The notes below the pieces were generated by a model that was not told the DNA's origin, did not search any database, and was given only the letters and a program-made list of their open reading frames with translations. A program made the position numbers and the translations under genes. From Lachnospiraceae bacterium (GTDB lineage Bacteria > Bacillota > Clostridia > Lachnospirales > Lachnospiraceae), in contig SVDY01000008.1 in the NCBI GenBank assembly GCA_015057665.1, positions 1 to 64,000 on the forward strand: DNA of 64,000 nt, written 5' to 3'. Of the stretch, positions 410 to 637 are shown piece after piece; the first letter of the stretch is position 1; each line of letters begins with the position of its first letter.

Positions 410-469
410 GTGCTGCAATATCACACACTTCGGAAGCTAGCCGGATTTATTTCAATTCGTGCTTTGTAA
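410..469 (+). CDS. Possible 19-residue leader peptide
   Basis: GTG at 410 lies 7 bases after a perfect GGAGG (398-402) and opens a 19-codon frame reading MLQYHTLRKLAGFISIRAL, ending in TAA at 467-469. The stop sits exactly one base before the anticodon-stem base G470 of the tRNA-like body. The frame also covers the 5' strand of the closing stem of that RNA (440-448), so translation would open the stem. This could be a regulatory leader or a coincidence; there is no homology to call on. Confidence 0.3.
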   Translation: MLQYHTLRKLAGFISIRAL

Positions 470-619
470 GCTGCAGGTCGCGGGTTCGAATCCCGCTTCC
501 GGTTACATGGAGCAGATTTTGCCAGTGCACGGCATGCTGCTGTAATTCGCAGAAATGCGAGTGACCGGAATAGCTCAGTCGGAAGAGCAGCAGAGAAAGA
601 ATCCGGCAATATCTCCGAG
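429..619 (+). ncRNA. Circularly permuted tRNA-like RNA, bacterial Y-RNA (YrlA)-like
   Basis: The 3' half of a tRNA comes first: anticodon-stem strand 470-474, variable loop AGGTC 475-479, T-stem GCGGG/CCCGC (480-484/492-496) around loop TTCGAAT, acceptor strand 497-503. The 5' half follows: acceptor strand 564-570 (7 perfect pairs with 497-503), TA, D-arm GCTC-AGTCGGAA-GAGC (573-588), A589, anticodon-stem strand 590-593. The acceptor helix runs on 3 more pairs (504-506/561-563) into two hairpins, 511-541 and TCGCA-GAAA-TGCGA (547-560). There is no anticodon loop; the two ends pair as GCCGGATT/AATCCGGC (440-447/600-607) plus TCGGA/TCCGA (430-434/614-618) across an internal loop. Known bacterial Y RNAs of the YrlA type carry a tRNA-mimicking module closed by an end-to-end stem; membership here is inferred from architecture. 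Confidence 0.75.
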
Positions 620-637
620 AGAAAGAGAGGAATAGCC

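Follow-up and report, generated by a model that had tools for sequence, protein, structure and literature searches.

Tandem Y-RNA-like modules, one with a circularly permuted tRNA domain, beside the gene for a predicted Ro60-like protein with an inserted TerD domain

What kind of RNA carries the two halves of a tRNA in swapped order, closed by its own stems, directly ahead of a gene for a large TerD-containing protein? The question is raised by the first 3 kb of a 64 000-nt stretch of a Lachnospiraceae bacterium genome (assembly GCA_015057665.1, contig SVDY01000008.1, positions 1–64 000, forward strand), here called the window. YrlA RNAs, known together with Rsr/Ro60 (RYPER) from Salmonella and Deinococcus, are Y RNAs that are bound by a Ro-type protein and modified by DusA and TruB. 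We find in the window two tandem YrlA-type, Y-RNA-like modules (362–620), the second of which holds a circularly permuted tRNA domain; both are probably bound by the product of the adjoining gene (638–2707), a predicted divergent Ro60-like ring with an inserted TerD domain. Module grammar, covariation, attachment to the gene in bacteria and phages, an architecture in common with Y RNAs beside TROVE genes, and a distant resemblance between the protein's profile and that of TROVE are observed directly. From these we infer binding, expression, and function; the locus most likely encodes a Ro/Y-type ribonucleoprotein whose Y modules double as leader of the protein's own mRNA.

Two modules and a shared grammar

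Module 2 (428–620, + strand) is closed by an outer stem (429–434 with 614–619) and an 8-bp inner stem, GCCGGATT (440–447) with AATCCGGC (600–607). By direct reading, the 5′ side of this predicted protein-binding stem (435–453, +) runs AGCTA (435–439), the 8-nt strand, and TATTTC (448–453); on the 3′ side (600–619, +), AATATC (608–613) separates the inner from the outer strand. Enclosed is a tRNA body whose 3′ part (variable region, T-arm, acceptor strand) precedes its 5′ part (acceptor strand, D-arm): the T-arm lies at 480–496 (+) with the loop TTCGAAT, the acceptor stem pairs 497–503 with 564–570, the D-arm occupies 573–588 (+), and 4 bp remain of the anticodon stem (471–474 with 590–593). 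Direct reading finds neither an anticodon loop nor CCA, as an earlier sequence-only reading of this DNA had stated. The swapped halves, T-arm, acceptor pairing, D-arm, and closed outer ends that it had described are borne out as well, both by direct reading and by R2, a covariance model (CM) built from 32 relatives with the window excluded, which recovers 428–620 with 89.7 bits (E = 1.3e-18 in 64 kb).

Region 420–640 folds better than its shuffles (z = −3.3; 2 of 200 shuffles equally good), and its minimum-energy fold retains the T-arm, acceptor, and closing stems while pairing parts of the D-arm side differently. The two hairpins into which the acceptor helix was said to run are present in the window (497–570, +; reading, fold, alignment, and R2), but they are absent from all 32 relatives, which have a short-loop cap instead. 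Permuted tRNA genes occur in some algae and archaea, and the swapped halves resemble them; that module 2 is such a gene, processed to a working tRNA, is nonetheless barely credible, given that anticodon loop and CCA are absent, that a loop or hairpins connect the acceptor ends, that partner modules carry no tRNA parts, and that ARAGORN calls no tRNA within the window. A permuted tRNA gene or tmRNA was ruled out as an identity for module 2 on the same absence of anticodon loop and CCA; the Rfam tmRNA match was partial, at 17.7 bits.

The earlier reading did not include module 1 (362–429, +), nor the constant elements AGCUA, UACUUC, and RAUAUC. Module 1 has no tRNA domain and consists of AGCTA (369–373), an 8-bp stem, TATTTC (382–387), and AATATC, so that both modules of the window carry the variant UAUUUC in place of UACUUC. 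A second CM, R1, scores it at 51.4 bits (E = 3.3e-10), with the window's own row among the 44 rows of the training alignment, and R1 has no other match at E ≤ 1 in this genome. Modules whose inserts are very large, 428–620 among them, escape R1.

Relatives come from a genome scan with the neighbouring protein, which gave 75 loci, mostly from Lachnospiraceae and other Clostridia of gut and rumen (L102/L103 and L109/L110 look like duplicates). They share one module grammar: outer stem strand, AGCUA, 8-bp stem strand, UACUUC, insert, stem strand, RAUAUC, and outer stem strand. A pattern-plus-partner search that required at least 7 of the 8 inner pairs found 131 modules in 67 of 76 sequences (the 75 loci plus the window), one of which, the third of L008, has a wrong partner inside the gene and hence a negative distance to it. 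Inserts are short without a T-loop (72), short with a T-loop (12), long with a T-loop (43), or long without (4). The D-arm follows the T-arm, i.e. the order is permuted, in 39 of the 43 long T-loop inserts, with three in normal order and one in neither. The three normal-order inserts (L039:598–730, L046:2795–2927, and L073:286–418) by eye have an anticodon arm, and the module stem replaces their acceptor end. Loci hold one module (23 loci), two (28), three (13), four (2), or five (1), mostly abutting (median gap 2.5 nt; six gaps of 190–293 nt).

Attachment to the gene is tight. In the 1.2 Mb of 84 loci (75 genome, 9 viral), 142 copies of AGCTA-N7-TTACTT fall within 1 kb upstream of the genes and 4 anywhere else. 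By R1 and R2 matches at E ≤ 0.01, 67 of 75 genome loci and all nine viral loci have modules ahead of the gene; the check that had been proposed, whether homologues carry the same RNA upstream with a covarying fold, has a positive outcome in these loci. No such match was obtained in eight loci: L031 and L074, which are truncated near the gene, and L032, L033, L037, L038, L045, and L047; in the last two a variant module is visible by eye. Rfam at gathering thresholds returned only tRNA and one c-di-GMP riboswitch from 17 homologous loci, the modules matching no known family; two of its tRNA-model matches (L005 and one in L046) fall on tandem modules.

Covariation was assessed on two alignments. 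A4, which trains R2, holds 32 of the 43 long inserts (non-permuted, odd, and near-duplicate ones and the window were excluded); 98.4% of its cells pair, versus 79.8% after shuffling. Changes on both sides occur in 25 of 30 pairs, reached by none of 500 shuffles, and sliding the partner by 1–3 columns leaves only 34–49% paired. Closing helices 1 and 2 are paired in 94.8% and 98.4% of cells and covary; helix 2, the inner stem, was part of module selection, while the other four helices are independent of it. A2, which trains R1, holds 44 of the 131 modules, those with inserts of at most 26 nt and no T-loop (43 distinct rows in the covariation test). Here 88.8% of cells pair versus 62.3% shuffled, the covariation score is 0.79 versus 0.28, and slides of 1–3 columns reduce pairing to 31–48%; the inner stem is paired in 99.1% of cells, being the selected feature, and the outer in 78.5%. 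Pairs changed on both sides number 14 in A2, a figure that 72 of 500 shuffles reach.

Y RNAs and the neighbouring protein

Are these modules Y RNAs? The YrlA CM of Rfam (RF02553) scores permuted modules at 33.6–48.2 bits (E = 1e-7 to 0.0017) in eight of eight loci, chosen because they hold such modules, and the window at 18.7 bits (E = 0.17), a low figure to which its long acceptor insert may contribute; the CM has no match at E ≤ 0.001 in the window's own genome. Conventional TROVE loci of Clostridia and phages give comparable scores, 31–56 bits in 9 of 12. The covariance search that had been proposed with this model falls short of the gathering score of 69 bits, which neither any module nor any TROVE-linked Y RNA here reaches; we therefore call the modules Y-RNA-like and do not file them under RF02553. 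Conversely, R2 recovers the RNAs in those 9 of the 12 TROVE loci, at up to 67 bits.

These TROVE-linked Y RNAs share the plan of the modules, an outer stem, an internal loop, an inner stem, and then UACUUC. TACTTC is present in 14 of 17 conventional matches, and 10 of the 12 found by Rfam YrlA carry it, so the motif is not merely an effect of searching with R2. A stem of 8–9 bp stands just before UACUUC in 11 of 14 TROVE-linked Y RNAs (200 shuffles: mean 1.7, maximum 6); the listing of stems took 16 of the 17 matches, and the stem-length test the 14 with TACTTC. In a Xanthomonas phage (L130, 883–1339), a conventional TROVE gene is preceded by five copies of TTACTTC, three of which fall in Y-RNA matches, so tandem Y RNAs may also serve ordinary phage Ro60 proteins; one Y-RNA match there overlaps an annotated tRNA.

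According to PMC8394870, YrlA has two parts: a basal stem by which Rsr is tethered, and a tRNA-like domain, with D, T, and acceptor arms, to which PNPase binds. The modules share with YrlA/Rsr the closing stem with internal loop and inner stem, the permuted T/acceptor/D domain, and the position beside a gene for a Ro-like protein. They differ in that their internal loops, AGCUA/RAUAUC, are unlike the YrlA consensus, in standing as one to five mostly abutting units, many without a tRNA domain, ahead of the protein gene, and in a partner protein that carries TerD and has no Pfam TROVE match, unlike Rsr/Ro60. With the same architecture, comparable though sub-threshold YrlA scores, modules upstream in most loci, and strong covariation, the YrlA-type reading put forward from the sequence alone is supported.

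The partner's own identity comes out otherwise than that reading had it. It took TerD to replace the usual Ro architecture. An AlphaFold model of the 689-aa protein (638–2707, +; pLDDT 88.9, pTM 0.88) contains a TerD fold and is aligned by VIA-align both to TerD and to Ro60; the ring part alone was also compared with Ro60. A Ro60/TROVE-like helical ring is predicted at residues ∼120–445, and TerD, at ∼457–627, is inserted before a C-terminal segment that still falls within the Ro60 alignment. Profile comparison with TROVE gives 28.3 for the full protein and 27.7 for the helical part, above all of 149 column-shuffled profiles (maxima 23.3 and 20.3) and above reversed profiles (18.7 and 20.4); raw hhalign probabilities are weak, and the signal is interpretable only through the shuffled-profile control. 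The helical part appears to resemble the Ro60 ring and its profile beats every shuffle, so the protein has the look of a divergent Ro60 that gained TerD. Both the predicted structure and the profiles point to a Ro60-like ring into which TerD has probably been inserted, and not to a replacement of Ro. Homologues for these alignments were drawn from the best 120 of 1114 matches, and alignment A1 unites 27 of these with 46 of the 75 loci and the window; L071, L107 (broken reading frame), L105, and L108 were excluded from protein alignments, and L108 and L109 from one profile (stops).

The protein may have its predicted helical ring in common with Ro60/TROVE (PF05731); their profiles align collinearly, ALLRKLNYI against AMMRNLRNI among other stretches, and the C-terminal part falls within the alignment to Ro60. 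Apart from the TerD insertion, the protein differs from Ro60/TROVE in having no match to the Pfam TROVE model and no DxSxS, the vWA MIDAS motif, which is found in 20 of 20 TROVE rows and nowhere in the window protein; the low-confidence end of the TROVE alignment places GKVYIDPQM on the strand that bears it. Foldseek alone gave no significant match for the predicted structure, and no direct sequence match to Ro60 was found in the PDB. TerD, of a tellurite/stress family, would here be an inserted domain of a Ro-like protein, and the Pfam TerD model has no match to it at E ≤ 1. Residues 296–612 match NF041916 (MXAN_6230/SCO0854) at 101.8 bits (E = 3.1e-29), below the cut-off of 600 bits and with the N-terminal part of the model unmatched, which indicates a probable remote relationship to this unstudied family; no paper naming locus MXAN_6230 or SCO0854 was found in a literature search of incomplete coverage.

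Distribution and gene neighbourhood

Across 299 genomes of the window's family, at least 6 have an R1 RNA (RNA counts are lower bounds, with 17 candidates scored per genome), and the gene is present in the same 6, in pieces in one of them, as well as in two genomes with 28–30% identical paralogs, each of which has an R2 match just downstream. The pattern is patchy: the protein was found in 2 of 61 genomes, the window's own and 60 relatives. Where the gene is in pieces (G118, C278:2924–6507, L114), the modules are present and ∼2.6 kb lie between the first two gene pieces. In another genome (G319), at a distance of 87 kb from the cassette, there is an orphan Y module (C19:11857–11915; L111 ∼2093–2138, counted on the minus strand) that has a TATAAT of its own and is flanked by two long open reading frames (ORFs), by eye glucosidase-like and carboxylesterase-like.

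The link between RNA and protein thins out among distant relatives. Of 13 distant loci, only four have an R2 match (E < 0.001) no more than 500 nt from the gene, downstream in L112, L113, and L120 and separate, upstream in L121, which weighs against the association as a rule for the whole family. L119 and L122–L127 are without a match, L128 has weak ones only, and in L129 it is partial and more than 2 kb away; either the RNAs have diverged in most distant loci or some members use none. R1, applied beside distant relatives and conventional TROVE loci, had a single match of its own type, in the close locus L071, plus a weak match in L120 (E = 0.019).

The protein is encoded on nine IMG/VR contigs. 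Phage and plasmid collections yielded distant relatives only, in 10 and 23 records that all cover less than 80% of the query. tRNA genes lie near the cassette in seven of the nine viral loci, up to 16 within 12 kb, which would suit tRNA-like modules acting as decoys that occupy tRNA-cleaving or -modifying enzymes, for instance in phage infection, with the protein as scaffold. The three normal-order inserts with an apparent anticodon arm point the same way, and competitive inhibition of an anticodon nuclease by YrlA is raised as a possibility by the authors of PMC7790460. We consider such decoys unlikely all the same: the 39 permuted inserts have no anticodon loop for anticodon nucleases to cut, 72 of 131 modules are short and have no T-loop, and 75 loci come from bacterial assemblies against nine viral ones, though some assemblies (L062, with 13 tRNA genes) may be phage.

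Several neighbours of distant relatives concern RNA repair or tRNA. In a genome of the window's family (L112:625–4261), an MXAN_6230/SCO0854-type gene comes immediately after RtcB and is itself closely followed by a permuted tRNA-like RNA, and RtcB adjoins the paralog in G267. Around other relatives we noted rtcR in Variovorax (∼1.3 kb away, divergent, with three small genes between), an RNA ligase in Vibrio vulnificus (∼3 kb), RtcB plus tRNAs in Rhodococcus phage Weasels2 (RtcB ∼3 kb away), and tRNA nucleotidyltransferase plus tRNAs in Ruegeria phage RpAliso. The other annotated distant loci fetched, some of the fetched loci carrying no annotation, had no such neighbour except a ribonuclease gene (Streptomyces) and a PemK-type gene (LpeD). 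By reading, the annotated ORFs of the window to 8 kb include no RNA-repair genes; its genome encodes RtcB and PNPase elsewhere. Upstream, a strong terminator-like hairpin (137–162) follows an ORF resembling ribosomal protein S21 by eye, and the Y modules start ∼200 nt later.

Leader, particle, and a possible second Ro/Y branch

A sigma-70-like promoter, TTGATT-17-TATAAT (331–359, +; 10 of 12 consensus matches, predicted start near 366), ends at 359, so a transcript would begin at module 1 and run toward the gene at 638. The site is weak on its own, since shuffles give 9.3 promoter-like sites versus 12 in the scan. Among relatives, 40 of 65 loci have a -10-like hexamer 15–30 nt ahead of their first AGCTA, compared with about 13% expected from the background rate. 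The last module ends a median of 32 nt before the gene start, taken as the start of the protein match (≤60 nt in 45 of 67 loci, one of them the negative-distance artefact), and the sole terminator-like call on the + strand within 362–638 lies inside module 2 (429–445), none falling between module 2 and the gene. Together with the many modules that have no tRNA domain, these features could be read as a cis-acting leader only, a series of repeated binding sites for translational control by the protein or another factor, without any trans-acting Y RNA. That seems quite improbable to us: a simple operator needs no conserved, covarying permuted tRNA domain, those distant relatives in which the RNA was found have it downstream of the gene or apart from it upstream, the orphan module lies 87 kb away, and Y RNAs of conventional TROVE loci are built on the same architecture.

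For the Ro/Y-type particle that we favor, the following mechanism seems most likely. Much as Ro60 holds a Y RNA by its stem, the ring would grip every module at its 8-bp stem, which AGCUA, UACUUC, and RAUAUC flank. The tRNA domain would offer a docking site to a tRNA-binding partner (PNPase, for example, a role described for YrlA) or mimic a tRNA partner, and would partly shield the ring. TerD, a Ca2+-binding fold in one member (PDB 2kxt, by its title) that possibly binds nucleotide derivatives according to PMC7159879, could sense a stress signal, upon which the ring would be released to handle damaged RNA or tRNA. Free protein might bind its own mRNA leader and so limit its own synthesis, a step proposed because the modules stand where that leader would be.

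A wider reading is possible, and we advance it tentatively: MXAN_6230/SCO0854-type proteins may be Ro-like rings that work with Y RNAs, forming a second, TerD-bearing Ro/Y branch in bacteria and phages. In Clostridia, multi-unit Y arrays would then be both scaffold for several rings and feedback leader, with TerD as a stress-sensing trigger. Ro/Y ribonucleoproteins as a kind are already known; the TerD insertion, the module arrays before the gene, and the spread through Clostridia and phages are new as far as our literature search shows, a full-text search of incompletely covered literature having turned up no published account of them. Nor did it find, with few subscription journals covered, a publication linking TerD to Y RNA or Ro60.

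If the predicted grip of the ring on the modules is true, the locus would belong to a second, so far overlooked branch of an RNA-surveillance particle that is already known. It would extend Ro/Y particles to gut Clostridia, a class in which Pfam TROVE detects conventional Ro60 in 4 of 245 genomes, and to phages; it would tie the TerD fold to RNA surveillance and give the unstudied MXAN_6230/SCO0854 family a testable role. With a module grammar this simple, the code by which Y RNAs bind protein can be tested directly, and the position of the modules ahead of the protein's own gene suggests self-regulation.
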